NCBI RefSeq assembly: GCF_000614185.1
Contig: NZ_BAKM01000018.1
Coordinates: forward strand, 1 to 64,000
Reading direction: 5' to 3'
Length of the DNA stretch: 64,000 bases
From: Phocaeicola sartorii JCM 17136 = DSM 21941
GTDB taxonomy: Bacteria > Bacteroidota > Bacteroidia > Bacteroidales > Bacteroidaceae
The notes beneath the pieces were generated by a model. That model saw nothing but the letters and a program-made list of their open reading frames with translations. It did not search any database and had not been told where the DNA came from. Every line of letters begins with the position of its first letter. Position 1 is the first letter of the stretch. The position numbers and the translations under genes are program-made. Below, in pieces: positions 27,525-42,883 of this stretch.

Positions 27525-27962
27525 ATGATGCCGACTAGAAAGTATAACAATCAGAATTGGTTACCAAGTATTTTCAATGATTTCTTTGATAATGAATGGT
27601 TGACAAGAGCGAACGCTACCGCCCCTGCAATTAATGTCATTGAAAGTGACAAAGATTATAAAGTAGAGGTTGCTGCTCCGGGTATGACTAAAGAAGATTT
27701 CAATATCCACATCAGCGAAAACAACGAACTAGTGATCTCAATGGAGAAAAAGAATGAAACAAAAGAGGATGACCATCACAACAGAAGATATTTACGTCGT
27801 GAATTCTCTTACTCTAAGTTCGAACAAGCTTTGATTCTTCCCGAAGATGTGGTTAAGGAAAAAATCAGTGCCAATGCCAGCAACGGCGTTCTGACTATTG
27901 ATTTGCCTAAACGCACTCCTGAAGAAAAAGCCAAAGTGAACAGGATCATCGAGATTCATTAA
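27525..27962 (+). CDS. Small heat shock protein, Hsp20 family
   Basis: 145 residues. The alpha-crystallin domain spans about residues 35-135 (INVIESDKDYKVEVAAPGMT, then ASNGVLTIDLPKR, the A-x-x-x-n-GVL signature). A C-terminal IIEI supplies the I-x-I/V-type oligomerisation motif. It is an ATP-independent cytosolic holdase that binds unfolding proteins. ATG 27525 is preceded by AGGAG; the next ATG at 27528 is a close alternative. The mobile element begins about 40 bp after its stop. Confidence 0.93.
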   Translation: MMPTRKYNNQNWLPSIFNDFFDNEWLTRANATAPAINVIESDKDYKVEVAAPGMTKEDFNIHISENNELVISMEKKNETKEDDHHNRRYLRREFSYSKFEQALILPEDVVKEKISANASNGVLTIDLPKRTPEEKAKVNRIIEIH

Positions 27963-28011: not shown

Positions 28012-28068
28012 GATATACTATTATTTTGCATGATATAAAAGTGCCTTACTTCCGGAGTTTTACAAAAG

Positions 28069-28173
28069 TGCTGCCACTGCTACCACCTTTCCCACTGGAA
28101 CCACGATGAACAGGACGTTCCAGAGGGTGGTGGCAGCACCTTTTTTATGCGGTAAAAAGGCTGCTGCCACCAC
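28069..28173 (+). repeat. Left arm of a long inverted repeat
   Basis: Starts TGCTGCCACTGCTACCACC and ends CTGCTGCCACCAC. It is roughly 93% identical to the reverse complement of 28673-28779 by eye. Inside it GGTGGTGGCAGCACC (from about 28126) and CTGCTGCCACCACC (to about 28174) form their own hairpin with a ~20-nt loop region. Confidence 0.85.
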
Positions 28174-28672
28174 CTTTCTCTATTCTTTCCGACAGTGAGA
28201 TACCTCGCGGCTATCCTGCCGGGGCGCACCTGTTGATACGTATGGCTCGCCTTGTTCATCCGTATGAACGTGTACACGGGCTACAAGTTTCAACCAGTTC
28301 CGTCAGGTTGAAACTTTAGTTCCATCAAGATGCAACCAGAGTTCCACTGAATTGTTACTGTGGTTTTGACTGTAGGCAACTGTAGTTCTGGCAGGATGCA
28401 ATCAGATTCCCATTGTAGTTTAACGCTTTAGGTTGACTACTCCTTCTTCTTACTTGTAAGGATGGTTGACGGAGTTAATACTTAGTTATAATATCAGTTG
28501 ACTCTTTCAACATCAGGCTACAGTCAGTGTTTTGTCCGCCGGTGGGTTCCATTCTGTCAGTCCGGCTTCAGCATTCTGTGGGTCCATTCCCATCTCCTTT
28601 TCCCGGCGTGTGGTAATCATCTCATGTATCTTCCCCTTCTTCCGTCCGTTTTGGGGTAAAAAAAAGGTAAAA

Positions 28673-28779
28673 GTGGTGGCAGCACACCTTTTTACCGCAT
28701 AGAAAAAGGTGCTGCCACCACCCTCCGGAACGACCTGTTCATCGTGGTTCCAGTGGAAAAGGTGGTAGCAGTGGCAGCA
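28673..28779 (-). repeat. Right arm of a long inverted repeat
   Basis: Reverse complement of the left arm with a few substitutions and small indels. GTGGTGGCAGCACACC at its start and AGGTGCTGCCACCAC inside it pair to give a strong nested hairpin. The arms enclose a 499-bp spacer; the whole structure is 711 bp. Confidence 0.85.
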
Positions 28780-29193
28780 GTTTTACCAAACTCTGTTGTA
28801 GGTGGATAAAGCATCCCGTGTGCACGGAATGCTCCGGATACGTATGTCATTTTCATGGATGGATCATCATAGAAGGATCAGCCGAAACGATGAACTGATA
28901 TTCGCTCCGACAGAGGAAATGGTTAAATGGGTTACAATAAGATTACGATTGAGGAAAATTTAAACAGGAACTAAGGAAAGTGGGCTTCTTTTTTATTGCA
29001 CAAGCATTAAAATCACAGATTTTTAGTAATTCTGGAAGACTTTTATAACCTCTTTATTTATAAGAGGTTTGAGAGAAAGGTTAAAATAGAGGTAACGAAT
29101 TGGCAACCGTGTTTATTTCTGCGCTTTGCTGCGAGTTGCTGTCAATGTCTCTCGTCTTGTTGCAAAATTAGGAATAAAAAACGGGAATACATC

Positions 29194-29229
29194 AAAACGT
29201 CCCATGATTTTTTTATCACAGGACGTTTT
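29194..29229 (-). terminator. Terminator downstream of the RteAB-like operon
   Basis: AAAACGTCC (29194-29202) pairs with GGACGTTTT (29221-29229) across an 18-nt loop. On the minus strand it follows the response-regulator stop by about 60 bp; T-rich flanks occur on both sides. Confidence 0.6.
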
Positions 29230-29287
29230 TTATCTTCGATGAGTATATCCGATTCAATCGTTACCTCTATTTTCAGTAAGTTATCGG

Positions 29288-30610
29288 CTATGATTGCTGA
29301 AATTTATACTTTAATCCATACTCTTCCAGCTTGCTGTACAGCGTTGTACGTCCTATTCCGAGCAGTTCGGCGGCAACCTTGCGGTTACCGTTCGCCTGCT
29401 TCAACGCACGTAAAATCCGTTCTTTCTCTTCCGCTTCGTTGCGCAAGGAGAAACTGATGGGAGAGGTCGGTTTTGTCACAGCAAGTTCCAGATGCTCTTT
29501 CGTGACAAGTCTGGTCTGCGCTTGCAACACCGCACCCATGATTTTCTGTCGAAGCTCACGGACATTGCCCGGCCACGCATGGGTCAGCAATGTTTTACGG
29601 GCTTCTCCGTCAAATCCGATAACGTCGCATTCCAGTTCTTGGTTCGCAATCTCACGGAAAAACTCCGCCAACGGCATGATGTCCTCCTGACAGTCGCGTA
29701 ACGGCGGGACGGTTATCTCGAAGTCATGCAGGCGGTATAATAAATCCTGCCGGAAACGTTTTTCGTTCACAGCCGCCTCTAAATACTCATTGGTGGCGGC
29801 AATGATACGGACGTTGAAACTCTTGTCCGTTTTGTCTCCTATCGGGCGGTATCTCCGCTCCTGTATGGCTCGCAGAAGCATCTGCTGGGTTTCCATAGCG
29901 AGATTACCCACCTCGTCCAAAAACAATGTGCCACCTTCCGCTTCGTGGAAATAACCTTTCTTGCTGCTGTCCGCACCCGTGAACGCTCCTTTGACGTGTC
30001 CGAAGAATGCCGACGGAGCAAGTTCTTTGGTGAGTGAACCGCAATCCACCGCCACGAACGGTTTTCCTGCCCGTTTGCTCTTATCGTGCAGAAGGTGGGC
30101 AATATGCTCCTTGCCCGTGCCGTTCTCCCCGAATATCAGTACACTCATGTCAGTAGGAGCCACCAGCCTTATTCGTTTCATGATGGCCTGAAATGCCGAG
30201 CCGTCACGGGAGAACACCGGCATACGGCTTCGCCCGATATTCCGTTCTTTTAAAATGGTACGAAGTAAAGGGACGAGTTTGTCCTCCACAAGTTGTTTGG
30301 GTATGTAGTCCAACGAACCGAGTTTCATGCTTTCCACTGCCGTATGTACTTCGGCATAGTCGGTCATGATGATGAACGGTTGCATCATTCCTTCCTTGCG
30401 CATCCAGCGCAAAAGGTCGATACCGTTGCCGCCGGGCAGGCGCAGGTCGGAAACCACTATGTCCCCGTCTGCGGCTTGTTGCAGATATTTCTTCACGGTC
30501 GAGAGGTGGAAAGCCTGCACGGTGCGGAACCCCTCGCGTGCCAGCAGGTTGCAGACGAACTCGCAATACACGATGTTGTCCTCCACCACGATGATTTTTG
30601 TATTATCCAT
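29288..30610 (-). CDS. Sigma-54-interacting response regulator, RteB-like
   Basis: 440 residues with NtrC architecture. A receiver domain carries phospho-acceptor Asp55 (VVSDLRLPGG). The AAA+ domain has Walker A GENGTGKE (161-168), the sigma-54 contact loop GAFTGA (208-213) and Walker B TLFLDEVGN. A C-terminal Fis-type HTH (about 405-430) reads GNRKVAAELLGIGRTTLY. In CTnDOT, RteB is the regulator paired with sensor RteA and controls excision and mobilization. Its start overlaps the sensor gene end by 8 bp, so they are co-translated. No rteC or tetQ is nearby, so its targets here are unknown. Confidence 0.88.
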   Translation of the reverse strand: MDNTKIIVVEDNIVYCEFVCNLLAREGFRTVQAFHLSTVKKYLQQAADGDIVVSDLRLPGGNGIDLLRWMRKEGMMQPFIIMTDYAEVHTAVESMKLGSLDYIPKQLVEDKLVPLLRTILKERNIGRSRMPVFSRDGSAFQAIMKRIRLVAPTDMSVLIFGENGTGKEHIAHLLHDKSKRAGKPFVAVDCGSLTKELAPSAFFGHVKGAFTGADSSKKGYFHEAEGGTLFLDEVGNLAMETQQMLLRAIQERRYRPIGDKTDKSFNVRIIAATNEYLEAAVNEKRFRQDLLYRLHDFEITVPPLRDCQEDIMPLAEFFREIANQELECDVIGFDGEARKTLLTHAWPGNVRELRQKIMGAVLQAQTRLVTKEHLELAVTKPTSPISFSLRNEAEEKERILRALKQANGNRKVAAELLGIGRTTLYSKLEEYGLKYKFQQS

Positions 30611-32930
30611 TATTATATTTTCTCCTTTCTTCTTTTGCCAGCCGGATGATTTCCGAACCTTTATCCAGTACGGCAGTCACAGCTTTATGGATAGCCTCGT
30701 TATTTGATATGCATTCGCTATGAAGCAATTTGTATAGTTCCCTTAATGGCTGGTCGGCACGGAGTATCTCCCACGAGCTGCGCAGATGGTGTATAAGGGC
30801 TTCCAGTTCTTGAAAATCTGTCTTTTGTTCCGCTTCCCTAATTATCAGCATTTCCTTTTCGGTTTCCGCTATCAGTTTATCCAGCATAACGGTTTCATTA
30901 CCGTAGGACAGCAGGGAGGTGAAATCCGGCTTTTCATTCCGGTTGCCTTTCATGGCGCACTTGTCTGAAACCTCCATCAGTTCCGATATGGAGAACGGTT
31001 TGAGCAGGCAACCGGAGAAACCACGTTCCATAAGTTCCTCCTTGCTGCAACTGCCCGAAGCGGTTGTCACGACTACCGGGATAGTCTTTGAATTGCCCAC
31101 ATTGGAGGTGCGTAGCAGTTCCAACAGCTCGAAGCCATTAATCTCCGACATATTCAAATCCGTAAGCAACAGACTGTATTCTTTCCGGCGTATCATTTCC
31201 ATCAGCTCCGCAGCACCAGTGCAGGTGTCGCAGTGTATCCCTTCCTGCGCATACATCTCTTTAAGCATCAGTAGCAACACTTCGTCATTGTCGACAGCAA
31301 TTACCTCATGATACGCCTCATTATGGCGGACATATCCTTGACGGGATTGTGCTGTCTGTTCATCAACTATCGGCATAAGTATTTCCACCGTGAAGCGGCT
31401 GCCTTTGCCTTTTTCGCTGTCCAGCCGGATTGTGCCGCCAAGCATTGCCACGATACGCTGCACGATGGATAAGCCCAGCCCGAAGCCGTCCTTTGCGGCG
31501 GCATTAGACAGACGTTCAAAAGCACCGAATACACGTTGTTGTTCCTCATCGGTCATACCTGTTCCCGTATCTTCAACAATGAGTTTCAGTGTACCGTTAT
31601 CATAATTCGTTATCAGGGATATACTGCCGTTATCAGTGAATTTCATGGCATTAGACAACAGGTTGTTCCCGATTTGGATTATTCGCTCTTTGTCAGTTAG
31701 CACAACGGCATCACATACGTTCTTCACTGTCAGCGATAGCCCTTTGTTCATGGCTATTGGCATGAACTCCGTTTCAAGTGTGTGCGTGATTGCTGAAATT
31801 CGGCAAGGTGAAAGACGTGGTTGTTCTTTGCCATTGTCTAAACGGAAGAAGCCCAACAAGGTATTGAGCATATCCCGCATACGGTCTGAGGAGTGCTGTA
31901 TGCTTTGAAGAAAATGCACATTGTTTCCATTGCTGCATTCCTTCCATAACAATTCGGTATAGCCGATTATTGTCGTCAATGGTGTACGCAACTCATGGGT
32001 AATAGTATGTACCGCTTTCTTTCGGGAGGCTATGAGTGCCTCATTTTGCTCGATTGATAGCTTCAGTTGCTCAATTAGATCTGTCGTTTTTCGTTTGTAC
32101 CGCTTGATACGTTTGGCATCCCTGTGTATGATTATATAGGAGATAATCAAAAGTAATAGAACGAAGCCAGTCAGACCTCCAATCTGTATAAACGACTGCT
32201 CACGCATGGTAGCTATCTCTATGTTTCGCTTTTGCAAGTCAGCTTGTACTTTTTCATCCATTTGGCGAATTAGTTCTTGCAGTTGTCGGTTAAGTTCCAC
32301 ATTCCTTGCAGCAAGACTGTCGGCGTGTTCCGATAGATAGTGGCTTTGCGCCTGTTGTTCGGCTATCATATCCCGGTTGAGGGAATGGAGCATCGTGGTG
32401 GTTACGGTTGGTTTTGGTCTTTCCTTCTTGCCGAATATGCCAAGAAATCCTTTTCGCTTTGGCTTTTGTGGTTGCTCCTGTACGCTTTTCTGCACGATTA
32501 CAGGAACCTGACGGGCTATCTTCTCGTTGAGAGCCTGCTGTTCGTCAAGTACTTGAACAATCCAGCGCATTTGCAGTTCTTTATCTGCAAGAAGATGGCG
32601 CACGCTGTCGATGCGCTCTACCGGATAAATCGTTTTGAAACGGCACAGCATACTGTCCATTGCCATACGCTGAATATGGTAACATTCTAAATCTTCATCA
32701 TCCCATTCCAATACGCTTTCGCCTAAAAGAGAAAACTTTATCAGCTGGATATGGATAATGTTTATTTCCTTACGGAAACTCTCTATCTGCCGGTTCATAG
32801 TTTCTAGTCTCTCCATGTCCCGCCACTCGCTGAACCAAGTGTAAACGATACCGCTCACTAACAAAGCTATCAGCAGGTAACCCATGGCCGTCAGTGTACG
32901 GATATTTTTTATTTCAATAACTTGTTTCAT
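30603..32930 (-). CDS. Hybrid sensor histidine kinase, RteA-like
   Basis: 775 residues. TM1 ~12-32 and TM2 ~249-268 enclose a periplasmic sensor region rich in helices. Then come HisKA with phospho-acceptor His312 in THELRTPL, an ATPase domain (N-box NNLLSNAMKF, G-box EDTGTGM and GFGLGLSIV), a receiver domain with Asp591 (LLLTDLNMSEING), and an HPt-like tail with His714/715 (LIHHLRSSW). This gives a complete phosphorelay to the adjacent RteB-like regulator. The domain order and partner match the RteA role of CTnDOT-family elements. The signal is unknown. Confidence 0.88.
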   Translation of the reverse strand: MKQVIEIKNIRTLTAMGYLLIALLVSGIVYTWFSEWRDMERLETMNRQIESFRKEINIIHIQLIKFSLLGESVLEWDDEDLECYHIQRMAMDSMLCRFKTIYPVERIDSVRHLLADKELQMRWIVQVLDEQQALNEKIARQVPVIVQKSVQEQPQKPKRKGFLGIFGKKERPKPTVTTTMLHSLNRDMIAEQQAQSHYLSEHADSLAARNVELNRQLQELIRQMDEKVQADLQKRNIEIATMREQSFIQIGGLTGFVLLLLIISYIIIHRDAKRIKRYKRKTTDLIEQLKLSIEQNEALIASRKKAVHTITHELRTPLTTIIGYTELLWKECSNGNNVHFLQSIQHSSDRMRDMLNTLLGFFRLDNGKEQPRLSPCRISAITHTLETEFMPIAMNKGLSLTVKNVCDAVVLTDKERIIQIGNNLLSNAMKFTDNGSISLITNYDNGTLKLIVEDTGTGMTDEEQQRVFGAFERLSNAAAKDGFGLGLSIVQRIVAMLGGTIRLDSEKGKGSRFTVEILMPIVDEQTAQSRQGYVRHNEAYHEVIAVDNDEVLLLMLKEMYAQEGIHCDTCTGAAELMEMIRRKEYSLLLTDLNMSEINGFELLELLRTSNVGNSKTIPVVVTTASGSCSKEELMERGFSGCLLKPFSISELMEVSDKCAMKGNRNEKPDFTSLLSYGNETVMLDKLIAETEKEMLIIREAEQKTDFQELEALIHHLRSSWEILRADQPLRELYKLLHSECISNNEAIHKAVTAVLDKGSEIIRLAKEERRKYNNG

Positions 32931-33020
32931 GAGACATCATAAGACCGCTATGTTTTTAGTTGAACTCATATCATCAATAGATAAAATTGGCGATGTGACA
33001 AAGGACAAGGATAGGCATTA

Positions 33021-33440
33021 TTATAAATTTCTTCTGACCCGTTTTAACAGTATCTTGCAGATTAACCTATGAAATGGTTTTATTATTGTAAAATAGAATT
33101 TTCCCATACGGTTATTGTATCTGACTTTTGTACAAACCGATAGATATAGGCTGTCATTCATACGCTTTTCGGTCATAAATGCAATAACAAAATCAAGGTG
33201 TTTGTTGTTTTTGCTTATTGTCGCAAGGCGATCGGATTCGACAATGACAAAATCCGATAAATTCTTCTCTCCTTTCAGACCAAAAGGTTTTACTATGGCA
33301 TTACGAAACTTCATCAAGGCAGTAATCCACTGCGGTGCGCAGAAGAATCTATCAGTCAATTCTTCTGCACTTATCAGCCGTGTGGTATGGACTATCTCAC
33401 TGTAATTATCAGTATAATCAAAATGCTTGTTTAGTTCCAT
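33021..33440 (-). CDS. DUF2867-type hypothetical protein
   Basis: 139 residues, probably cytosolic. The pattern FFCAPQWITALMKFRNAIVKPFGLKG followed by NNRMGKFYFTIIKPFHRLI is that of DUF2867 proteins, whose function is unknown. There is no signal peptide; the second Ile/Lys-rich segment could be membrane-peripheral. It sits just inside the cargo block, before the RteA-like gene. Confidence 0.65.
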   Translation of the reverse strand: MELNKHFDYTDNYSEIVHTTRLISAEELTDRFFCAPQWITALMKFRNAIVKPFGLKGEKNLSDFVIVESDRLATISKNNKHLDFVIAFMTEKRMNDSLYLSVCTKVRYNNRMGKFYFTIIKPFHRLICKILLKRVRRNL

Positions 33441-33462
33441 GACGCGTAAAAAGATTTTACTA

Positions 33463-34356
33463 TCACAAATTCTTCACCATATAGCGAATCACAACAGCTT
33501 TGACATTAGCTTCCGGGTATTTGTTTTGGTAATATGCCGTAAGGTCTTTATATAGCCATATCTCAACATTCTGCGGTGCAGGTGTTCGATTCTGAGCATA
33601 TATAAACACATCATATTGCATTACAGAGTCTTCTATATCATCGCCTGTTACAAAATTAAACTCTCCATATCCGGAAACTTTACTTTCCGGCAGAAGGAGC
33701 TTATATGATTCAGGAAACTCTGTTGGTTCCTTGCCCCTGCTAATCAAAAAGCCTTGATTAACAATGTGCATATCGACATCCAATAAGAACCATTTACGTG
33801 TTCCTGTAAAAGCAATATAACAACGCAAGCCTCCGAATTTATAGGTTGCATCGGTTTTAAGGTCATTTTCAATCTCATCTTTTTGGTCGGCTTCAATGGC
33901 ATAAGCAAATTCAGGATTGATATACGGACAACGTTGCTCAAAATACCAGTCCGGGATGAAATGAGGAGGTAAATTTTCAGAGTTCTTGCGTTCTTTCGAT
34001 ATGACTTCCAATAGCTCGTATTCAGTCCATGCCGGATCGCCCATATTATAATCCAGATAGCTCGTTTCACTGATGCGTATTTGGTACTCATATCCTTCTT
34101 CATATTCAAACTTACCGATGCTTCCATGAGCCTCCCAATCGGTGGACTGCTCGTTTTTTACAGCATATACATCTGCAAGTACATTGCTACCACTCGATGT
34201 TAAAACACCGGGGAGTTTTACAGAAGCTACCGTAAGCGTGTATTCCTTATAACCGGTTATCTTCCTACCTTCTTCATCATCGTCATTACACGCAGTCAGC
34301 CCTGCCATAGTAAGAATAGCTACCAATAGTATTGTGAAATAATTATGTTTCTTCAT
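33463..34356 (-). CDS. DUF4377-containing lipoprotein (element cargo)
   Basis: 297 residues with lipobox GLTAC (Cys22) followed by an acidic DDDEEG linker, which favours export to the cell envelope. Residues ~35-130 (FEYEEGYEYQIRISETSY, then ELLEVISKE) fit the DUF4377 pattern found next to HslJ/META-type domains. The C-terminal half is not recognised. The function is unknown. Confidence 0.65.
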   Translation of the reverse strand: MKKHNYFTILLVAILTMAGLTACNDDDEEGRKITGYKEYTLTVASVKLPGVLTSSGSNVLADVYAVKNEQSTDWEAHGSIGKFEYEEGYEYQIRISETSYLDYNMGDPAWTEYELLEVISKERKNSENLPPHFIPDWYFEQRCPYINPEFAYAIEADQKDEIENDLKTDATYKFGGLRCYIAFTGTRKWFLLDVDMHIVNQGFLISRGKEPTEFPESYKLLLPESKVSGYGEFNFVTGDDIEDSVMQYDVFIYAQNRTPAPQNVEIWLYKDLTAYYQNKYPEANVKAVVIRYMVKNL

Positions 34357-34409
34357 TTTATTGTTTCTTTATAGTAAATTCCACCTTTTGAAGACCTTTT
34401 TGGCAATAA

Positions 34410-34850
34410 TTATATATTTCTCTCCATAGGGATACTTACAATCCCCTTATTAAGCTCTTTTTCACCCACTTTTTTGAAACCTAAAGATGCATAGAAAGTT
34501 TCTGCATAGGTTGAAGAATGAACTGTTATATAAGTAAAATTACATTCATTCATTACATAGTCAAATAGCGATTTTCCTATTCCTTGCCGATGATAGTGCG
34601 GCAAGACAAAGAAGAGGGATATATGTTGTTTTTCCCGATGTACACCGATTATTCCTATCAATAAATGCTTGTCAAAAGCTCCATATATGTCAAGTGCATT
34701 CATCAACGATGTGTCATACACGAAACTTTTAAAGGTTTCGATACCTTCTTGGGTGAAATCATTCCTGCCACATTCCATACATACTTGATAGGACAAATCG
34801 GCAGCATTGTTATATTCATCTTGTGTTAATTTGCGTATCATAATATTCAT
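34410..34850 (-). CDS. GNAT-family N-acetyltransferase
   Basis: 146 residues of a complete GNAT fold. The acetyl-CoA site motif A is LPHYHRQGIGKSLFDYV (Q/R-x-x-G-x-G/A) and motif B is YAETFYASLGFKKVGEKE. The substrate is unknown. Its start overlaps the stop of the preceding GNAT gene by 4 bp, so the two are translationally coupled cargo genes. Confidence 0.85.
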   Translation of the reverse strand: MNIMIRKLTQDEYNNAADLSYQVCMECGRNDFTQEGIETFKSFVYDTSLMNALDIYGAFDKHLLIGIIGVHREKQHISLFFVLPHYHRQGIGKSLFDYVMNECNFTYITVHSSTYAETFYASLGFKKVGEKELNKGIVSIPMERNI

Positions 34851-35362
34851 ATCCTAAAATCAGCTTTTAGCAATTCATAACAGTGGCAATCTAAAAAATT
34901 CCCATTCTTGAAATAGGCATTACGATGTATGCCACATTTGCGAAATCCTATTTTCTCTAAAACTCTCATTGATGGCATATTACCAGCATAAACATTTGCA
35001 TAAACACGTATCACATCTGTATAGGAAAAATAGCTACGAATAGCAAGTACTAACATTTGAGTCATAATCCCTTTACCCCAATAAGGTTCGGCAAGCCAAT
35101 ACCCTAATTCAGCATTGTAGCGTTCCACGTCAATGCCACGAGAGAAACTTATGTTGCCGACAGCCTCCTGATTTACTTCGATGCAATAATTATTTTGTTC
35201 GCTTTGATTTAAAACGAATCGGATAAATTGTTGCGCATCGCTCTCAGAGTAAGGATATGGCAGACTATCACGGCAATTATCCCATATCTTTTTATTATTA
35301 AGATATTTAGCCAAAGTGGAAAAATCATCTTTAAGCCAACGTCTTATTTTGCATTTATCCAT
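34847..35362 (-). CDS. GNAT-family N-acetyltransferase (RimJ/RimL-like)
   Basis: 171 residues. ELGYWLAEPYWGKGIMTQML supplies the acetyl-CoA motif, and MRVLEKIGFRKCGIHRNAYFK is the RimJ/RimL-type C-terminal signature. Such enzymes acetylate protein N-termini, amino acids or small molecules; the target cannot be read. It is coupled to the following GNAT gene by an overlap at 34847-34850. Confidence 0.85.
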   Translation of the reverse strand: MDKCKIRRWLKDDFSTLAKYLNNKKIWDNCRDSLPYPYSESDAQQFIRFVLNQSEQNNYCIEVNQEAVGNISFSRGIDVERYNAELGYWLAEPYWGKGIMTQMLVLAIRSYFSYTDVIRVYANVYAGNMPSMRVLEKIGFRKCGIHRNAYFKNGNFLDCHCYELLKADFRI

Positions 35363-35444
35363 ATCTATTCCTTTTGTTTTATTACTGCGACTTTCACTAA
35401 CGCCAAAATTCTTCGTGGATTTGCCCGTTTGTCCGATGTGGAAC

Positions 35445-35738
35445 TTACGTTAGTTGGCAGGTAATAAATAAGCAAAGAAAGAGAAGGCCTGCCAATACAA
35501 TGCAGCCTATGACTAAAAAGGCTCTATTGAGTTTCTTACGCTCCAATTCCTCCTTTTCCAATGTATTCTTTCGAATATCCTCCAATTGTTCCAACGAGAG
35601 GTGGGAGGAGGGAGAGGAGGCACTTACTTCGAGCAATCGGCGACGAGTTTCCTTCATCCGCTCACGCCCTATCTTGCGCAGTGCCCTGTTCTCCTTATCT
35701 CGCTGGAGCATATCGCTCACACAGCCTAATGTCCCCAT
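35445..35738 (-). CDS. Small single-pass membrane protein, hypothetical
   Basis: 97 residues. An Arg/Lys/Glu-rich N-terminal ~70 residues (likely helical or coiled coil) precedes one C-terminal transmembrane helix (FLVIGCIVLAGLLFLCLFI). No family is recognised. It sits 14 bp downstream of the SecD-head-like lipoprotein gene, in the same direction. Confidence 0.55.
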   Translation of the reverse strand: MGTLGCVSDMLQRDKENRALRKIGRERMKETRRRLLEVSASSPSSHLSLEQLEDIRKNTLEKEELERKKLNRAFLVIGCIVLAGLLFLCLFITCQLT

Positions 35739-35752
35739 TTTATAGTTAATAT

Positions 35753-36205
35753 TTAATGTTCCAACCTTGATGTCTCAATTTCTTTTTGTAGAATCTCAAA
35801 GATACGTTCTAAATCATGCCTGTGCGGGGGACTGATTTGAAAAGTACCGCTTTCTATTCTTGCATTGACCATCGGGGCGGTAATAACTGTATCATTAAAT
35901 ACAAAACCTATCCGTTGCCCAATAGCTTGTTCTGTAGCATCTGCCCAGACTTTTTGTTTCTGCTTATTTACACTTCCCGATATAGCTCGGAGACCATAAT
36001 CATCAGAAACAAGTTCTATCGCAGCAAAATCCTTGACGGTTACAATCGGCCTGCTTGCAAGACTATCCTTCTGTCCGTCTGTGATAAGATACCAACCGTT
36101 TTCCTGATGCAGCATCGAAGCCTGCTTACATGAGACCACAAAGATGAATAAACAGCAGCCTATTACTCTTATTGCGGTTTGTGCATTTCTAAAAGTTTTC
36201 ATCAT
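35753..36205 (-). CDS. Lipoprotein with a SecDF P1-head-like domain
   Basis: 150 residues with a lipobox VVSC (Cys26). The C-terminal part, GQRIGFVFNDTVITAPMVNA followed by SGTFQIS, matches the P1-head subdomain pattern of SecD (G-x-x-I-x-h-x-h-x-x-x-h-x-x-A-P-x-h-x-x-x-I). Stand-alone lipoproteins with this fold occur in Bacteroidetes; the role is unknown. The gene just upstream is another lipoprotein, with a broken frame. Confidence 0.6.
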   Translation of the reverse strand: MMKTFRNAQTAIRVIGCCLFIFVVSCKQASMLHQENGWYLITDGQKDSLASRPIVTVKDFAAIELVSDDYGLRAISGSVNKQKQKVWADATEQAIGQRIGFVFNDTVITAPMVNARIESGTFQISPPHRHDLERIFEILQKEIETSRLEH

Positions 36206-36206
36206 A

Positions 36207-36622
36207 TCAATGCAGTTTGGTCAATGTCGCCACCGATTTTTCCGGACGATAAGACTGAAGTACAATGCGATTCTTGGACTTTTCAATAACTGTCCAATTG
36301 CCTACCAAAGCACTATTCTTAAAAGTAATGATTCTACCATCTATGCAATAGTATAAGTCCCATACAGCAGAAGGATCACCACTGCCCTCACCATTGATAC
36401 TTTTACCTTGTGTTTCAGTGAGGAATTCCACAATCAGATATTCTTCGTTTACGACTTCTTTCCCATCTGCATCATAATCGCAAACACAAGCATTCCAGGT
36501 CGTTTGCAACAGTTCCGAAGCGGTCAATGTTGCTCAGTATCATTGTCGTCATCACTGCAACTCGCCAATAGCCCAATACTTAGAAGCAATATCATACTCC
36601 ACAATTTAAGTTGATAGTTCAT
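36207..36622 (-). pseudogene. Lipoprotein, frame broken after the signal region
   Basis: ATG 36622 starts MNYQLKLWSMILLLSIGLL, with lipobox LLASC, followed by SDDDNDTEQH and a stop. The next frame, from 36527 (TTG), continues ASELLQTTWNACVCDYDADG and runs to 36207. One base lost between 36527 and 36535 (CAACATTGACC) accounts for the split; restored length is about 138 residues. The mature part is beta-rich, ending in RPEKSVATLTKL, and is of a lipocalin/META-like size, but no family is certain. It is 2 bp from the SecD-head-like lipoprotein gene. Confidence 0.6.
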
Positions 36623-36876
36623 ATTATCCAATTTTTTAGTTTGATATTATACATGGAATTTTAATTATAACCTTCTCTTCGTCTCTGAACCGGAAGTTTT
36701 ACGCTCATGGGATTGGGGTTGCGAGTACATCTCAATCCCACTTACAAATATAAATATGGTAAACAAAATATGTTTCATACCTTTATGATTGAATATTTCT
36801 GCAAAATTACAGGTATAAAACGAAACAACTCTCAAACTATTTTGAGAGTTGCATTACGGGCACTTATTTGAGAGTA

Positions 36877-37452
36877 TTATTCCTTGCCAAAAGTAATTTC
36901 TTTGCGGATACGGCTAAGGTAGGTCGGTGTAATTTGCAGATAGGAGGCAAGTTCTTTGAGCGTAATATCTTGCAATATATTAGGACAGCGTCTTATCAAC
37001 TCCCAATACCGTTCTTTGGGAGATTGCCGATAAAGATTGAGGTATCTGTCATGAGTTTGCCGAAATAACTCTTCTGCCATAACGCAGCGTAATTCTATAT
37101 TTTCTTTCAGTATTTGTCTAAAAAGATTAGTGCTACAAACCCATACGTTTGAATCGGTTATCGCTTGAAGAGCCACCAATGACGATTCCTTCCGAATGGA
37201 ACTATAGAAGTCTCCGGCTAAAGTATCGCACAATGCAAGCCCCGTGATATGTTCATTTCCATCAGTATCAATGATAGTATATTTAAAAGCACCGGATGTA
37301 ATGAAACCGAAATACTTAGGTGTTTCTCTGCGATGAAGAAAATACTCTCCCTTTTTATAATGGCAAAGTTTACCCTCTTTGACGCAAAGTTCACGCCAAA
37401 AATTCAGGTCTATCTTATCTATATATGGGTTAAAATTAGCCTTGCTTTTCAT
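36877..37452 (-). CDS. Crp/Fnr-family regulator (second of a tandem pair)
   Basis: 191 residues: a cNMP-type beta-roll followed by an HTH (TLKELASYLQITPTYLSRIR). Clearly a paralogue of the gene 5 bp upstream (shared opening YIDKIDxNFWRELCxKEGKLC and near-identical ending up to RIRKEITF). No Cys cluster for iron-sulfur binding. The pair probably arose by tandem duplication; which element genes they control is unknown. Confidence 0.85.
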   Translation of the reverse strand: MKSKANFNPYIDKIDLNFWRELCVKEGKLCHYKKGEYFLHRRETPKYFGFITSGAFKYTIIDTDGNEHITGLALCDTLAGDFYSSIRKESSLVALQAITDSNVWVCSTNLFRQILKENIELRCVMAEELFRQTHDRYLNLYRQSPKERYWELIRRCPNILQDITLKELASYLQITPTYLSRIRKEITFGKE

Positions 37453-37457
37453 CTGCT

Positions 37458-38024
37458 CTATTTTTCAAAAGTAATTTCTTTGCGAATGCGGCTAAGGTAT
37501 GTCGGTGTGATTTGCAGATATGATGCCAATTCTTTGAGCGTTATATTTTGAAGAATATTAGGACAATATTCTAATATATGAATATAACGTTCCTTCGCAG
37601 ATTGGCGATACAGATTCAAAAACCTATCATATGTCTGGTGAAAAAATCCGTCTGATATGACACAATGTAACTTAAAGTCTTTTTCAAAGAGTTCATCAAC
37701 AATATTGCGGTTACAAACCAATACTTCCGCATCTGTAGCCGCTATAATATCAGTAACGGCTGGAGTTTTCAATACAAGACTTGAATAGTCACCCAATGGC
37801 GTGTCGCAAAATGAAAAACCAGTTATATGTGTATTACCTTCTGAATCGGTCACGGAGTATTTGAAATATCCTTTTTTGATAAATCCCCATACATTTTTTG
37901 TTGTATCTCCACAATGAAGGAAATAATCACCTTTTTTATAAAGGCATAACTTCCCCTCTTTAGCGCAAAGTTCGCGCCAAAAATTCATGTCAATCTTATC
38001 TATGTATGAGTTAAAGTCTGCCAT
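37458..38024 (-). CDS. Crp/Fnr-family regulator (first of a tandem pair)
   Basis: 188 residues, with the same organisation as its downstream paralogue: an effector beta-roll (KGDYFLHCGDTTKNVWGFI) and an HTH ending TPTYLSRIRKEITFEK. CAAAGTTA at 38047-38054 gives TAACTTTG on the minus strand, a -7 box 23 bp before the ATG. It heads the cargo block next to the relaxase end. Confidence 0.85.
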   Translation of the reverse strand: MADFNSYIDKIDMNFWRELCAKEGKLCLYKKGDYFLHCGDTTKNVWGFIKKGYFKYSVTDSEGNTHITGFSFCDTPLGDYSSLVLKTPAVTDIIAATDAEVLVCNRNIVDELFEKDFKLHCVISDGFFHQTYDRFLNLYRQSAKERYIHILEYCPNILQNITLKELASYLQITPTYLSRIRKEITFEK

Positions 38025-38046
38025 TCTTAATCGTTACAACTATTTG

Positions 38047-38054
38047 CAAAGTTA
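38047..38054 (-). promoter_or_regulatory. -7 box of the tandem Crp/Fnr genes
   Basis: TAACTTTG on the minus strand matches TAnnTTTG, 23 bp upstream of ATG 38024. Confidence 0.5.
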
Positions 38055-38277
38055 AGCATTCTAATCCGAATAGTCCTTAATTCTGTTGAGCAATAAAGCC
38101 ATTCAGAGCAAAGTTCACTCCAAATGGCTTTTCAAATCAATGAAAATTCTATATTTTCATACTTTTGTGGCGGTTTCCTTCTTTCGCATATAATCCCGGA
38201 TGCCCGATGATTATATGGTCGGCAATGAAATTCCCTGACGGGCTGCGGTCTTTTGCCGGACTGCGTATCTGCGGTGG

Positions 38278-39219
38278 TTACAACCTCATTCCCCGTTTGC
38301 GTTTCTTCTTCCTGCGAAGTATTTCCGCCATTTCCTGATCGGTTTCCGCATCAGAGGCATTGTAAGATGAGCCGTTGCTGTTCAGCAGTCCCAACGAACC
38401 GTTGAACAATTCACTTTGTGCCGTTCCGAATGGTGCGCTCGGTGTAACTGCCTCATGTACTTTGGCTGTCATTCCCATACGTTCCTCATACCTGTTGTGC
38501 CGCAAGGTAGCATCAATCTTGGTATAACTGAAACGCCTGTCCACTTTGGAACCGTTGAAACGGTATCCGTTCTTGATGAAGACCACGCCCTGTATTTCGT
38601 CCGTCTGCCCTTTGTGGCTGAAAAGCACTTCCACGCCCTGCCGTTTTAGGTTGGCGACAAGCACGCTCCAGTTACCACACCTGCAGACTTCGGTTTTGAG
38701 GATGTCGTAAAGCTCGTACCTTGTCTTGTCCGGCTCTTTCAGGCGGTTGCGCTTGACATTATCCTTACCGCCAGCCATGTGCAAGCCGTATTTCTGCGTA
38801 AGATCTTTGCAGATACGGGCGCTTCGCAATCGCTCGTGCTTGTCCGAAATGGTGTTGCCGTTGTTGTCAATGCGGTTGAAGGCGATATGCACGTGCGGAT
38901 GCTCCTTGTCGAAATGTCGGGCGATGAAGAACTGCGTGTCCTTGATTCCCATCTTTTTCAGATATTCAAGAGCGATGCCCGCCATGACGCGGTTAGTCAG
39001 GCGTGGCTCATCCTCTTTGGAGAAACTTAACGCGATATGTCCGACAGGCTTCGCAACCTTGTTGTTCATCTGCCATTGGACGTTGAAACTCATGGCGATG
39101 GTTTCCCTGTTTTCCATGAACAAGCCATCGGATGCGACAACTTGGGCGTTCTTGTCTTTGTCAAGTATGTAATTCACCACACCCTTGAAGTCGCTTCCCT
39201 TTACGATTTTCGCCATCAT
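38278..39219 (-). CDS. Mobilization relaxase (MobA/BmgA type)
   Basis: About 313 residues from ATG 39219. The relaxase domain has GVVNYILDKDKN near the start, then HIALSFSKED and the metal-binding HUH motif HPHVHIAFNRID. The C-terminus is basic (RRKKKRKRG). It nicks oriT and carries the strand during mobilization. The open frame extends upstream to 39276, but MMAKIVKGSDFKG at 39219 is the family start and overlaps the mobC stop by 4 bp (ATGA-type coupling). BmgA-like enzymes of Bacteroides elements pair with a MobC/BmgB accessory protein, as here. Confidence 0.88.
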   Translation of the reverse strand: MMAKIVKGSDFKGVVNYILDKDKNAQVVASDGLFMENRETIAMSFNVQWQMNNKVAKPVGHIALSFSKEDEPRLTNRVMAGIALEYLKKMGIKDTQFFIARHFDKEHPHVHIAFNRIDNNGNTISDKHERLRSARICKDLTQKYGLHMAGGKDNVKRNRLKEPDKTRYELYDILKTEVCRCGNWSVLVANLKRQGVEVLFSHKGQTDEIQGVVFIKNGYRFNGSKVDRRFSYTKIDATLRHNRYEERMGMTAKVHEAVTPSAPFGTAQSELFNGSLGLLNSNGSSYNASDAETDQEMAEILRRKKKRKRGMRL

Positions 39220-39578
39220 ATCCCTATCTTGGTCAAGAGTTCGTGAATCCTTGCCACCGCCACCTTGCAGTCCCACTGTTCATCGTGGAACCCTCCGGCG
39301 TTAGCCTTGCGTGCAAGCTGGTTGAGATTGTTCGCCATGCCGCAGAGCTGGCGGATGTATCCGGCGTGTTCCTCCGACAGCCGTTCCCTCACATGACCGT
39401 TCCGGAAACATTCCCTCATGTATTCGCTCGGCGATATGCCTGCCTCATGCGCCCGTGTCAGCAAGCAGAAGTAGTCGGCTGCCGCCATTTTCACGCCAAT
39501 ACGATAGCTCAGCTTTTCCGCCGTTTCCTTTTTCGGGCGACCGCCCTTGTTACGTTTCTTATATTCCTTATGCTCCAT
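39216..39578 (-). CDS. MobC/BmgB-type mobilization accessory protein
   Basis: 120 residues, basic N-terminus (KKRNKGGRPKKETAEKL) and a ribbon-helix-helix-like segment (YRIGVKMAAADYFCLLTRAH), then the MobC signature LCGMANNLNQLARKANAGG. It assists the relaxase in oriT recognition and strand opening. It lies between the candidate oriT (39654-39695) and the relaxase gene, the expected order. Confidence 0.88.
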   Translation of the reverse strand: MEHKEYKKRNKGGRPKKETAEKLSYRIGVKMAAADYFCLLTRAHEAGISPSEYMRECFRNGHVRERLSEEHAGYIRQLCGMANNLNQLARKANAGGFHDEQWDCKVAVARIHELLTKIGI

Positions 39579-39653
39579 TTTCTACTTTCAATGCTGTTAC
39601 TGATTATACTGTATAGACCAACGGGATTCCACCTCCTGTAGCTTGGATGGTGG

Positions 39654-39695
39654 GTAGCAAGCGGTTTCGGTACACCCGAAACACAAACTTGCTAC
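39654..39695. other. Candidate oriT (nested palindrome upstream of mobC)
   Basis: GTAGCAAG (39654-39661) pairs with CTTGCTAC (39688-39695), and inside it GTTTCGG (39664-39670) pairs with CCGAAAC (39676-39682) around TACAC. This compact nested inverted repeat is 76 bp before the mobC start, in a gap between replication and mobilization genes, as is typical for oriT. The nick site is not identified. Confidence 0.6.
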
Positions 39696-39751
39696 TTCCC
39701 AATCCTTGAAGAATGAGTTTCGGGCAGCTCCCGTTTTTGCTGTTTGGAATG

Positions 39752-40690
39752 TCATAGTCCCAATCCTTTCTTCTTCTGTTTTACGATAGTTCTTGGTGGT
39801 GGACTAACGGCTAAATCCTGCCGTTTGCCGCACAGGTAATCGTTCAGGTCTTTGTGTCCTTTGTAGTTGTCGGAGAAATCGCGGATGCGTCCGGCGAACT
39901 CTCTTTCCAGTTCTCGGTACGCATTTCTTCCCGCCTCGTCATTATCAAGCAGGCAATGGATGCGCCCGTACCCGTGCAGCACATCTACGGCTTTGGAAAC
40001 ATTGGAGACGGAATTGAGGATGACATAATCCTGCCTGTCAAGGTTGGGCATGGCCGGACAGTTCTTCATCCGCAACGTGAGGAAGGAAAGATAGTCCGTC
40101 ATGCCCTCGAACACGAGGCATTTCTCTCTCAGCTCTCCCTGTTGCCGGATATGGCTGATGTCCTTCGGTGCGATACAGCCTTTGAAGAAACGGTTACGAA
40201 CCTCATATCCTCCAGCCACGTTCGGGAACCCGATGGCGAAATAGGGCTTGCCGTTATGGATGAAGTGCAGTTCCCTACATTCCGGTTTTGCCAAAGCTAT
40301 GTTTATACCCCGTTCCTGTAAGTAGCGGAGCAGTGCCGGATGGGTGAGTTCTCCCACTTCCAGGTGTTGGAAGCTCGGTTCGGATGCCTGCTGGCGAAAA
40401 GAGAAAGACACGGGACGGATGTGTGGAGCCTGTTCCGCTATCCTGCCAAGCAGGTAAGGCACATAGTCGGATGCGTATAGTTCCTGTGCCAGCGTGATGA
40501 TGTTGCCGCCCCTGCCCAGCCCGTAATCGAACCACAGGTTACGGTCGGTATTCACCTTGAACGAGGCTTCCGTTTCCTCTCTGAACGGGGATTTGTACCA
40601 CAGGCTGTTTCCCTGTTGCTTTACGGGCGTGTAGCCCAGACTTTGCAGATAGTCCGCGATTCTGATTTGTTTGGCTTCTTGTATAGTCAT
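39752..40690 (-). CDS. Toprim-domain primase-like protein
   Basis: 312 residues. The N-terminal ~100 residues resemble the zinc-finger/primase entry domain of DnaG-like proteins (SLWYKSPFREETEASFKVN; FDYGLGRGGNIITL), although a full CHC2 zinc site is not evident. The C-terminal half is a Toprim domain (CLVFEGMTDYLSFL; IHCLLDNDEAGRNAYREL, with the DxD-type acidic residues). It would act in priming or replication of the excised or transferred element, with the primase-helicase gene upstream. Confidence 0.85.
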   Translation of the reverse strand: MTIQEAKQIRIADYLQSLGYTPVKQQGNSLWYKSPFREETEASFKVNTDRNLWFDYGLGRGGNIITLAQELYASDYVPYLLGRIAEQAPHIRPVSFSFRQQASEPSFQHLEVGELTHPALLRYLQERGINIALAKPECRELHFIHNGKPYFAIGFPNVAGGYEVRNRFFKGCIAPKDISHIRQQGELREKCLVFEGMTDYLSFLTLRMKNCPAMPNLDRQDYVILNSVSNVSKAVDVLHGYGRIHCLLDNDEAGRNAYRELEREFAGRIRDFSDNYKGHKDLNDYLCGKRQDLAVSPPPRTIVKQKKKGLGL

Positions 40691-40710
40691 AATCTTACAA
40701 TGGATTTAGT

Positions 40711-40956
40711 GATGAATGGAAAAACGATAATTTGATGAATGTACACATTATTTCACTGAATGACAGCATGGTACATATTCATCGTCCTTTCATCAAAGTA
40801 CTCGCCAAAAGAGAAATTCATCATTAACGGTGACGGGCATAGCTTGTCAGTCTCATTTCTACTTTTCATCTTCGGAATACTTTTGATGAACATCTGATGA
40901 GGATGTAAACCTGTATGTTTCAGTATGGTTATATGCTTGTTCATCATTTCATCAAA
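40711..40956. repeat. Iteron-like TTTGATGAA repeats
   Basis: Four copies of TTTGATGAA/TTCATCAAA (40731-40739 +, 40789-40797 -, 40882-40890 +, 40948-40956 -) plus at least five TTCATC/GATGAA half sites lie in 250 bp between the two replication genes. A short open frame (40753-40947, 64 codons) overlaps them but resembles nothing. The arrangement suggests a Rep-binding or origin region. Confidence 0.45.
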
Positions 40957-40960
40957 ATAA

Positions 40961-42166
40961 TCAGAGAGTTGTCAGATATTCTTTTGTCACGGTATAGAAC
41001 CTTCCGGTTTTCCGTATGGGCGAATAGTGACATTCACGGGTACAGTCCACTTGGTAGGTGGTATAGGTAAGCGTATTAGGTGCAGGCGTGAGTTTCCAAC
41101 ACTCTTGCAATACTTTCCGTACTTGGTGCTTCTCCACCTTTACCTGCGAGTGTACCAGCAAAAGAAGAACATCGTTATAGCAGAACGAGAACGTGTCCGT
41201 GCCTGTACTGTCCATGATGTCGAGTATAAGCTCGCACATCTCGATTTCCAGACGGTTGCGGTTGCTGCGGATAATCTTGCGCAAGGCTTCGGTATGCAGC
41301 AATGAGGGAGCGAACCACATCCGGCTTTCTTTTTTCGTTGCCATTGCCCTGTGCTGCAAATGATGCAGGAAAGCCGGGATTTCCGCCTTCAGCTTTTGCA
41401 GAAAGTCGGTATCATCTGATTGCAGGCGGTTTATCTTGCGCACCCAATAACGTGTTTCGCCCGCGTCAATGATGACAGGCAAATACTCGTTGTTGGAACA
41501 CAGCACGAACTTGGCGAAGAAGGCTATCTCGTCACGGTCTTTGCCTTTGGCTTCCACCTTGTAGGAGAGTGTGGTGCTGAGGTTCTTCAACCGCTCGCTG
41601 TCCTCCCTGCGGTTGAGCAGCACCTCGTCCACCACGATGAGCAGCTTGCCCGTCCAGTCGGAATTGAACTGGCTGCGGAAATCCTCGTTGGTGTTGAACG
41701 TGACGTTGTTCTGAAACACGGCTTTCAGGAAGTTCAGGAACGTGCTTTTGCCTGTGTTGCGCTCTTCCGATACCAACAGCAGGATAGGCAGTTTTTGAAC
41801 AGGTTGCAGGTAGAGCAGTTGCAGGTAATCCATGCCTAACTCGTACTGTTCACCGAAGATGTGGTGTACTAATGAAAGGATACAGGGAAACTCGCCTTGT
41901 TGCGGGCGGTGCTCAATCGGCTCGTAGAGGTTCAGGAACTTGTCCACTACAGGACGGTAGTCCACATGGTCGGGGACGGTGCAGAAGCCGTCATACTTCG
42001 GCACGGTGGCGAGATAGTCCTTGCCGTAGTCCTGCCGCAGCGTCTCGTTGTTCCACACGATGCGTTTCCTCACATAGCCACCGTTCAGACGGGGCTGGTT
42101 CACTAATTTGTAGAGGGTCGTACCTACCCGTATGAACTCCTCCTTTTCTGTATTTTCTTTCTTCAT
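40961..42166 (-). CDS. Primase-helicase family NTPase (DUF5906/SF3-like)
   Basis: About 401 residues from ATG 42166; the longer frame to 42241 adds a Cys-containing leader that looks unnatural, and ATG 42160 is also possible. P-loop SEERNTGKSTFLNFL, Walker B LLIVVDEVLL and SF3-like motif C (FAKFVLCSNNEYLP) are present. A winged-helix-like C-terminal part ends in RFYTVTKEYL. Such proteins replicate mobile elements and phages. It probably works with the Toprim protein downstream. Confidence 0.82.
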   Translation of the reverse strand: MKKENTEKEEFIRVGTTLYKLVNQPRLNGGYVRKRIVWNNETLRQDYGKDYLATVPKYDGFCTVPDHVDYRPVVDKFLNLYEPIEHRPQQGEFPCILSLVHHIFGEQYELGMDYLQLLYLQPVQKLPILLLVSEERNTGKSTFLNFLKAVFQNNVTFNTNEDFRSQFNSDWTGKLLIVVDEVLLNRREDSERLKNLSTTLSYKVEAKGKDRDEIAFFAKFVLCSNNEYLPVIIDAGETRYWVRKINRLQSDDTDFLQKLKAEIPAFLHHLQHRAMATKKESRMWFAPSLLHTEALRKIIRSNRNRLEIEMCELILDIMDSTGTDTFSFCYNDVLLLLVHSQVKVEKHQVRKVLQECWKLTPAPNTLTYTTYQVDCTRECHYSPIRKTGRFYTVTKEYLTTL

Positions 42167-42300
42167 CGGCATCTTGATTTTATGATTGTCAGATGTTTGT
42201 CTGGCGCAAAATTCGGCAATACAAACAAGACGGATTGACAACCCACACGTGACTCACGTAAGATTTTCTTGGATTTGGCTTAAAAGCATACAACAAAAGC

Positions 42301-42335
42301 CCGAAGAAGTGCCTTTCTAATGGGTTTTTCTTCGG
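42301..42335 (-). terminator. Hairpin after the integrase operon
   Basis: CCGAAGAA (42301-42308) pairs with TTCTTCGG (42328-42335) across a 19-nt loop, on the 3' side of the small gene that follows the integrase. A strong T-run is lacking on the minus strand. Confidence 0.4.
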
Positions 42336-42355
42336 ACTTAGTAGTACGTATTGTT

Positions 42356-42436
42356 GATAAAACGGCAATACGTCTGTTCAACTGACCACCAATACGTTTT
42401 ATCAGCAGTACGTTTTATTGATAATGCGTTTTATCG
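42356..42436. repeat. Direct and inverted CGTTTTATC repeats
   Basis: GATAAAACG (inverted, from 42356), TACGTTTTATC (42393), TACGTTTTATT (42409) and TGCGTTTTATC (42425) lie in 80 bp between the integrase operon and the primase-helicase gene. The regular ~16-bp spacing of the three direct copies suggests a protein-binding array (operator, iteron or recombinase arm sites). Confidence 0.45.
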
Positions 42437-42499
42437 GCAATAGATTGACACATAAAGATTTGTCGGTTTCACTATTTTATGTCGCCATATCATTGGGCT

Positions 42500-42883
42500 T
42501 TATGCTTGATAATTAGACATATTGTGAATACCCAGCGAAAAGAAGAATGTTGTTTTCTCTTTTCGCAAGTATAGCCTTTCAAAAACGGCATTGCGCACCA
42601 GTTCCGCCCCAAAACTGTTGATGTGGAAAGCAAGCGCGACTATCATCGGGAAACTGAACACATCGGCATGATATCCGTTCTCCAGCCGGGCATACTTCTG
42701 TGCCTCTTGCCCTTTCAATACACCGCTTTTATACACGGCTTTGATGGCGGCACGGAGTGTCGGGACGATTACCCCGAACAGTTCCACCAATTCCGGTTCG
42801 CTCATCCATATATCAGTGACATTCTCCGTCATGATAATATTGCCGGATTCATTCATTGTTATGATGTTTCTTCCCATACTCAT
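42500..42883 (-). CDS. Hypothetical protein behind the integrase, possible DNA-binding
   Basis: 127 residues. The segment MSEPELVELFGVIVPTLRAAIKAV looks like a helix-turn-helix, and the remainder (DVFSFPMIVALAFHINSFGAELVRNAVFERL) is helical. No firm family assignment. Its start overlaps the integrase stop by 4 bp, so it is co-translated and may act as an excision or regulatory factor; this is inferred from position only. Confidence 0.6.
   Translation of the reverse strand: MSMGRNIITMNESGNIIMTENVTDIWMSEPELVELFGVIVPTLRAAIKAVYKSGVLKGQEAQKYARLENGYHADVFSFPMIVALAFHINSFGAELVRNAVFERLYLRKEKTTFFFSLGIHNMSNYQA

Follow-up and report, generated by a model that had tools for sequence, protein, structure and literature searches.

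Background

Among the described elements that we found, the one closest in architecture to the repeat analysed here is the BrickBuilt MITE of Porphyromonas gingivalis. According to the accessible part of its description (PMC4596501), BrickBuilt is an element of the Bacteroidales that is always intergenic and is present in 19 copies, has a length of up to 991 nt and has many partial copies; it carries a 23-nt minisatellite between an unlike leader and tail, long hairpins made by this minisatellite are predicted, the terminal inverted repeats (TIRs) measure 12 bp (GAGACCTTYGCA, IS5-like) and no transposase remnant is reported there. Prokaryotic MITEs are typically smaller than 500 bp in total and have TIRs of about 4-30 bp, as given in the accessible part of PMC10969869, which also names SPRITE, a repeat of Streptococcus pneumoniae that resembles a rho-independent terminator. 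REP/BIME elements, which are linked to RAYT, consist of alternating palindromes in intergenic mosaics and usually exceed 100 copies per genome (PMC2817692, accessible part), and the insertion of insertion sequences (IS) into REPs is claimed in the title of PMC1525189.

Here we describe a hairpin-rich structure in Phocaeicola sartorii JCM 17136 (= DSM 21941), located in a stretch of 64,000 nt (contig NZ_BAKM01000018.1, positions 1 to 64,000), to which we refer as the window. It belongs, as one of many copies, to a family of non-coding repeats that is apparently undescribed and is dispersed between genes in a few related species of a Phocaeicola lineage; in the literature searched (openly licensed papers) no prior description of the family was found. 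Individual loci and genomes are indicated by L and G numbers.

Results and discussion

Anatomy of the repeat

An earlier note, made from the letters of the window alone, had pointed to a 711-bp structure with long inverted arms, a strong palindrome in each arm and a spacer without a clear gene, and this description proved accurate. The 711-bp stretch is the core of the element and lies between two near-identical 11-bp direct repeats (Table 1). The arms are complementary for 92% over 91 nt in an ungapped alignment (28055-28145 with 28703-28793) and for 88.9% in a gapped one (28055-28188 with 28658-28793), and the predicted fold of 28050-28800 as single-stranded DNA was more stable than that of all 20 shuffled sequences (-190.3 versus -90.2 kcal/mol, sd 6.2; z -16). 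Nested GTGGTGGCAGCAC palindromes were located in both arms (28126-28147/28153-28174 in the left arm and 28673-28694/28700-28721 in the right arm), and the only ORF of at least 60 aa within the element is one of 65 aa (28080-28277, - strand).

Comparison with other copies showed that the similarity exceeds the core and includes the outer ends on both sides and, on the right, part of the flank (Table 1). Taken from one side to the other, a copy of the family consists of an outer end, a palindromic direct repeat of 10-11 bp (TTTTGCAAAA), an arm of about 120-130 bp with two mutually exclusive hairpins, a gene-free spacer of about 470 bp with a 22-bp minisatellite, a second arm in inverted orientation, a second direct repeat and the opposite outer end.

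Table 1. Features of the window copy, with positions as counted in the window
Feature	Position	Strand	Basis or remark
Core (left arm, spacer, right arm; TGCTGCC...GGCAGCA)	28069..28779	.	Bounded by direct repeats and core-less sites
Left direct repeat GTTTTACAAAA	28057..28067	+	Family consensus GTTTTGCAAAA
Right direct repeat GTTTTACCAAA	28780..28790	+	10 of 11 bases match the left one
Left-type outer end TTCCGGA	28050..28056	+	Alignment of arm flanks; family consensus about CCCTTCCCGGA
Right-type outer end	28791..28805	-	CCACCTACAACAGAG when read inward
Left arm	28052..28191	+	Covariance model R1, 146.5 bits (arm in the 23-arm building set)
Right arm (left arm in inverted orientation, with both hairpins)	28655..28796	-	Covariance model R1, 155.5 bits (in the building set)
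Left-arm hairpin 1	28069-28087 with 28126-28138		Followed by T-run 28141-28146
Left-arm hairpin 2 (alternative)	28126-28147 with 28153-28174
Degenerate spacer stretch	28286..28401	+	Homologous to the 22-bp minisatellite of other copies
Secondary 97-bp insert (TGTAGTTTAACGC...GACTCTTTCAA)	28414..28510	+	Terminal piece of a transposon with rve-type transposase
Right flank shared with other copies	28806..28927	-	To about 28850 with four loci (L034, L038, L039, L040), to 28927 with a fifth (L032)

On its left the element is preceded by an Hsp20 gene (27525-27962, + strand). To its right lies an island of about 15 kb (29035-44361, start approximate) that starts with genes for a sensor kinase and a sigma-54 response regulator, ends on the right with a tyrosine integrase gene and also contains relaxase, toprim and DUF5906 genes; the island is not found at this place in P. 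vulgatus and G063, where its flanks are contiguous. The placing of the structure "at the left end" in the earlier note holds only in so far as the island starts about 100 bp past the right shared flank; the island itself is separate.

Copies and distribution

A BLAST search of the own genome with the element yielded 66 matches, and a covariance model (R1, built from 23 arms) identified 23 full-length arms at 16 sites. Eight of these 16 sites lie less than 0.5 kb from a contig end, so that some of the one-arm sites may be halves of one copy. The genome search for the arm that had been proposed as a check established that the arm is not unique to this genome: of the 61 genus genomes searched, 8 contained arms (the own genome counted), with filters that were stricter and can miss weak matches. 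The richest relatives in terms of full-length arms were G069 (IMSAGC_004, 10 arms), G063 (6) and G011 (P. vulgatus ATCC 8482, 6). A plain DNA search gave matches in 6 of 60 genomes (again including the own genome), and G013, G014 and G030 match the spacer insert only.

Two-arm copies numbered 12, of which seven in the own genome, four in G069, one in G063 and none in P. vulgatus. In all 12, and hence in three genomes, a + arm is followed by a - arm, i.e. the arms are inverted and face inward. The one outward-facing pair, found in a P. massiliensis record, is weak (second arm 10.5 bits, E 0.08). No match to the element was found in phage records. Plasmid records yielded one weak arm, in an entry for Phocaeicola massiliensis that is labelled plasmid 15, and a further weak P. 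massiliensis record came up when two other copies served as query. An exact 19-mer scan of genome contigs returned 14 stretches, six of them in P. vulgatus or IMSAGC_004, which were already seen to bear arms; among the other eight, which were scored with the model, only L212 matched, weakly (20 bits). The same scan of viral contigs returned one stretch, L213, to which the model did not match.

Copies of the family are alike for only about 75-85%, which suggests that the family may now be inactive. Arms that belong to the same copy are more similar than arms paired at random (79.9 versus 74.4%; 11 pairs, 1 of 20,000 shuffles reaching this value), although several arms have a closer relative in another copy.

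Unpaired, distant arm-like units of at most 50 bits were seen at L121 (2886-3025), L122 (2918-3057) and L123 (3212-3352). The smaller Phocaeicola genomes G025 and G079 contain such unpaired units only, perhaps an older one-arm form of the family. We also observed a copy of 3 kb (L046, 2032-5080, in the own genome and L110, 134-3165, in G069), in which the arms surround DUF6078, BT4734-like_N and VapE-like genes; the frame that matches BT4734 measures 687 aa in G069 and 234 aa in the own genome.

Orthologous loci and sites without the core

Neither P. vulgatus nor G063 has the element at the window site; between flanks that are 85-94% identical to those of the window, they contain 184-186 bp of a different sequence. 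The native sequence was replaced at this site and not merely interrupted, and no clean pre-insertion site is present. Other orthologous loci differ in what they retain: L041 is a two-arm copy whose orthologue in P. vulgatus, L120, is reduced to a single, decayed arm, L108 has two arms and its orthologues L070 and L114 one each, and the counterpart of L037 in G063 has an arm remnant of about 20 bp.

At three junctions (L167, L169 and L146) the core is lacking, and a right-type and a left-type end, as typed by eye, are joined at one TTTTGCAAAA. L167 and L169 are perfect GAGTTTTGCAAAACTC palindromes and L146 is near-perfect; the perfect 16-mer palindrome of the former two is expected 0.0017 times in this genome. 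L146 (G069) is orthologous to L031 in the own genome with 96% identity on both sides, and L031 retains the left arm and part of the spacer, its right end being lost. Exact GAGTTTTGCAAAA sites in four genomes comprised 3 core-less sites, 19 arms or arm remnants and 1 unrelated sequence. L167 and L113 were also considered as a filled/empty orthologous pair, which was rejected as the sequence from gene to junction differs.

For the L146/L031 pair, loss from a full ancestral copy is as short an explanation as a fresh insertion with subsequent deletion. We infer that loss is the more probable, given that the outer ends are found again at loci that are unrelated and that few sites are core-less (3 versus 19). 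The TTTTGCAAAA-type repeats that flank the core are palindromic and could therefore belong to the element rather than be a target duplication; a core-less site could likewise be uninserted target.

Composition of the spacer

TRF detected the 22-bp minisatellite in L034, L037 and L108 and reported no such array in the window copy, which has the degenerate stretch listed in Table 1. Two other arrays were observed beside arms, one of 21 bp at L108 (5017-5083; TRF, G069) and one at L073 in P. vulgatus (2758-2918, noted by eye).

The secondary insert in the spacer of the window copy is flanked by CAT at 28411-28413 and 28511-28513 (a 3-bp duplication), and the uninserted site was seen in L070, L108 and L114; in L031 the duplication is not clean. 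Longer forms of the insert in L034 and L035 adjoin an IS3-like relic with Pfam domain rve_3. Intact insert modules are 93-99% identical (83% for L047) and the remainder of the copies about 73-87%. Since the insert is more alike than its surroundings and its junctions differ, it seems to be a later, repeated arrival, and the idea that this shared nested insert would prove amplification of the repeat was rejected. The 97-bp piece has three GTTGAC motifs, is 94-99% alike across the window, L033, L034, L035, L041 and L117, even between species, and sits at several places in the repeats; contigs C93 and C145 of the own genome end inside it.

A peptide-like frame in the spacer had been put forward as a possible relic of a lost gene. 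The frame exists, but in 11 aligned sequences (the window and 10 copies, 14 sequences having been tried and 3 having scored below the limit) it is disrupted by indels of 1 nt and 4 nt and has no third-position bias (129/155/121 differences). On account of these out-of-frame indels and the lack of codon bias, it does not look like a coding relic.

Hairpins and T-runs in the arms

Each arm can be divided into three segments, of which segment 2 (GGTGGTGGCAGCA) can form either hairpin 1, by pairing with segment 1 and with a T-run next to it, or hairpin 2, by pairing with segment 3. In a chosen set of 35 arms, hairpin 2 was paired in 96.1% of the cells with a covariation of 0.128 (0.106 when shuffled), and it had 3 double-change pairs versus 1.7 in shuffles, a number that is not unusual as 91 of 500 shuffles reached it. 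Hairpin 1 was paired in 75.6% of the cells, with 11 double-change pairs versus 7.4 when shuffled. As the column pairs 45/90 and 46/89 of hairpin 1 hold in one sequence only, part of the hairpin as drawn is wrong. The covariation in the hairpins could also stem from relatedness or from template-switch correction within inverted repeats.

We called an arm terminator-like when hairpin 1 was below -15 kcal/mol and at least 5 of the next 8 bases were T. A stable stem with a T-run was found in 43 of 51 arms when read inward and in 7 of 51 when read outward (28 and 5 in the earlier chosen set of 35). The inward and outward numbers were 22 and 4 of 23 arms in the own genome, 9 and 2 of 10 in G069, 3 and 0 of 6 in G063, 4 and 0 of 6 in P. 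vulgatus and 5 and 1 of 6 for weaker arms elsewhere, so that the inward signature is kept in just 4 and 3 of the 6 arms in P. vulgatus and G063, respectively. A generic consensus scan for terminators listed none at the arms and gave one site in the region, away from them (shuffle mean 0.9); in our opinion the loop and stem limits of the scanner exclude the arm hairpins. The T-run persists in L121, L122 and L123, where the A-rich hairpin 2 partner has been lost (L121 and L122 are mutual orthologues).

The gene context could be scored for 19 arm-bearing loci out of a sample of 25, the other six having one neighbour that was not called. By rough ORF calls, 8 of the 19 lie between convergent, 10 between tandem and 1 between divergent genes; these calls carry error, since the orthologues L070 and L108 were scored as convergent and tandem, respectively. 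Because each arm has an inward terminator-like hairpin with a T-run, which would halt transcription coming from adjacent genes, a copy at a gene end is predicted to block read-through, and probably does so. The suggestion that the structure is a transcription barrier fits as a property of the sequence of each arm. It does not fit as a specific guard of the island end: such protection is not indicated, as the element lies outside the island and copies occupy many other loci.

Comparison with described elements

With BrickBuilt, as far as the accessible part of its description goes, the family has in common that it occurs in Bacteroidales and in intergenic regions, has a minisatellite between unlike ends, includes partial copies, is predicted to form long hairpins and holds no transposase remnant. 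The arms of about 120-130 bp with hairpins of their own differ from the 12-bp TIRs and minisatellite-made hairpins of BrickBuilt, and the ends (GAGTTTTGCAAAA) are not the BrickBuilt TIR, the likeness being loose only (GAG...TTTGCA). The tandem units measure 22 bp and 23 nt, respectively, a comparison of unit lengths and not of letters. Since the ends differ in length and sequence, the present family is not a BrickBuilt.

Judged by the accessible part of PMC10969869, the family resembles MITEs in being non-coding (with the exception of the 3-kb copy that holds genes), multi-copy, dispersed and mostly intergenic, and in having inverted ends (found in all 12 two-arm copies), decaying direct repeats and partial copies; the 711-bp core and the 120-130-bp arms exceed the size limits given for MITEs, and no parent IS was identified by exact GAGTTTTGCAAAA ends in four genomes. 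Like SPRITE in that source, it is a dispersed repeat that resembles an intrinsic terminator, a likeness by name alone and not by sequence. Alternating palindromes in intergenic mosaics are shared with REP/BIME elements (PMC2817692, accessible part), whereas copy numbers are in the tens (23 full-length arms in the own genome). A Y1 (RAYT-type) transposase (PF01797) was found in 0 of 5 genomes tested and in 5 of 14 control genomes, which argues against a relation with REP/RAYT and led us to reject a RAYT as the mobilising partner in these five genomes. The copies of the family have variable middles. Foldback-type elements, which are eukaryotic and in that respect unlike the present family, have very long inverted arms around a variable middle as well. 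Apparently undescribed as a family, it is of a known kind, being a dispersed repeat that resembles MITEs or foldback elements and has terminator-like arms.

Origin and possible function

Of the four ideas raised in the earlier note (non-autonomous mobile unit, invertible segment, transcription barrier and hairpin substrate), that of a non-autonomous mobile unit was best supported, by the dispersed copies, the fixed architecture, the presence or absence between relatives and the core-less sites. A different history, which we regard as possible though doubtful, is that a palindrome of about 45 bp (left end, TTTTGCAAAA, right end) pre-existed and that the core is a transposon that inserted centrally with a 10-bp target duplication. 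The core-less sites L167, L169 and L146 are consistent with this, the L146/L031 pair is explained equally well by insertion and partial deletion, and some insertion sequences target REP palindromes; the exact GAGTTTTGCAAAA sites (3 core-less versus 19 arm-bearing) are the opposite of what an abundant target family would lead one to expect, and no enzyme was found. It is somewhat less likely still that the arms are a domesticated terminator or insulator, whose role in intrinsic termination at gene ends is maintained by selection, with mobility as mere history. The inward hairpin and T-run in most arms, the T-run kept in L121/L122 and L123 without its hairpin 2 partner, the compensatory changes in the hairpins and the near absence of divergent neighbours (1 of 19 loci) would agree with such selection. 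The patchy presence (8 of 61 genomes) and the loss or halving of copies between close relatives are unlike the outcome of strong selection, and the T-run also pairs in hairpin 2, which alone could account for much of its conservation.

An invertible segment, in which recombination between the arms would flip the spacer (phase variation), had also been proposed, and the long inverted arms and the greater likeness of arms within a copy, which gene conversion between arms could cause, would suit it, as would two promoter-like matches in the spacer, a number to be set against 1.4 in shuffled sequence. The types of the inner and outer ends, however, agreed in 27 of 33 arms, disagreed in 5 and were undecided in 1. 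Among the 10 two-arm copies scored, five were coupled at both ends, L108 was coupled at one end with the type of the other undecided, and in four a single end was mismatched (the ends of L037 and L107 are of the right type on either side, and in L041 and L046 the interior differs); L110 and L117 fell outside the scoring because their interiors are too different to type. No scored copy had a swapped spacer, and inversion is therefore not supported; with no recombinase-sized ORF in the spacer either, we consider it very improbable. Equally improbable is a gene for a structured non-coding RNA or a producer of long dsRNA: the extreme fold and the covariation speak for it, whereas no Rfam family reached its gathering score (of the 8 matches below threshold, 7 were to microRNA models), spacers differ between copies in both length and content, and copies with a single arm are common.

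An exact GAGTTTTGCAAAA search in four genomes found no transposase with these ends. The 3-kb copy was rejected as an autonomous partner, being a single locus that is 98% identical in both genomes. BT4734-like genes were rejected too: there are 6, 6, 6 and 4 of them in G000, G011, G063 and G069, respectively, and only those of the L046/L110 locus lie between arms.

Conclusions

The explanation that we hold to be likely, taken as a whole, is that of a non-autonomous MITE- or foldback-like repeat that decays by loss of an arm or of the core and whose arms probably block read-through. The element would have been mobilised in trans by a separate enzyme, and decay would proceed mostly through the loss of one arm or of the entire hairpin core between the TTTTGCAAAA repeats, possibly by replication slippage across the long inverted repeat. 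A bolder version, to which we give little credence, is that of a portable transcription insulator: a mobile repeat in which each of the two inward-facing arms would alternate between two hairpins, a terminator formed by segments 1 and 2 and an anti-terminator-like one formed by segments 2 and 3, and which would spread to gene ends, shield convergent neighbours and leave by precise loss of the core at TTTTGCAAAA.

The family would enlarge the set of non-coding repeats in Phocaeicola, whose members are common bacteria of the gut. In this assembly such repeats occur at contig ends; they also mark gene ends that have been rearranged and may terminate transcription. With the core-less and one-arm orthologues at hand, it can be tested directly how stable long inverted repeats are in these bacteria.
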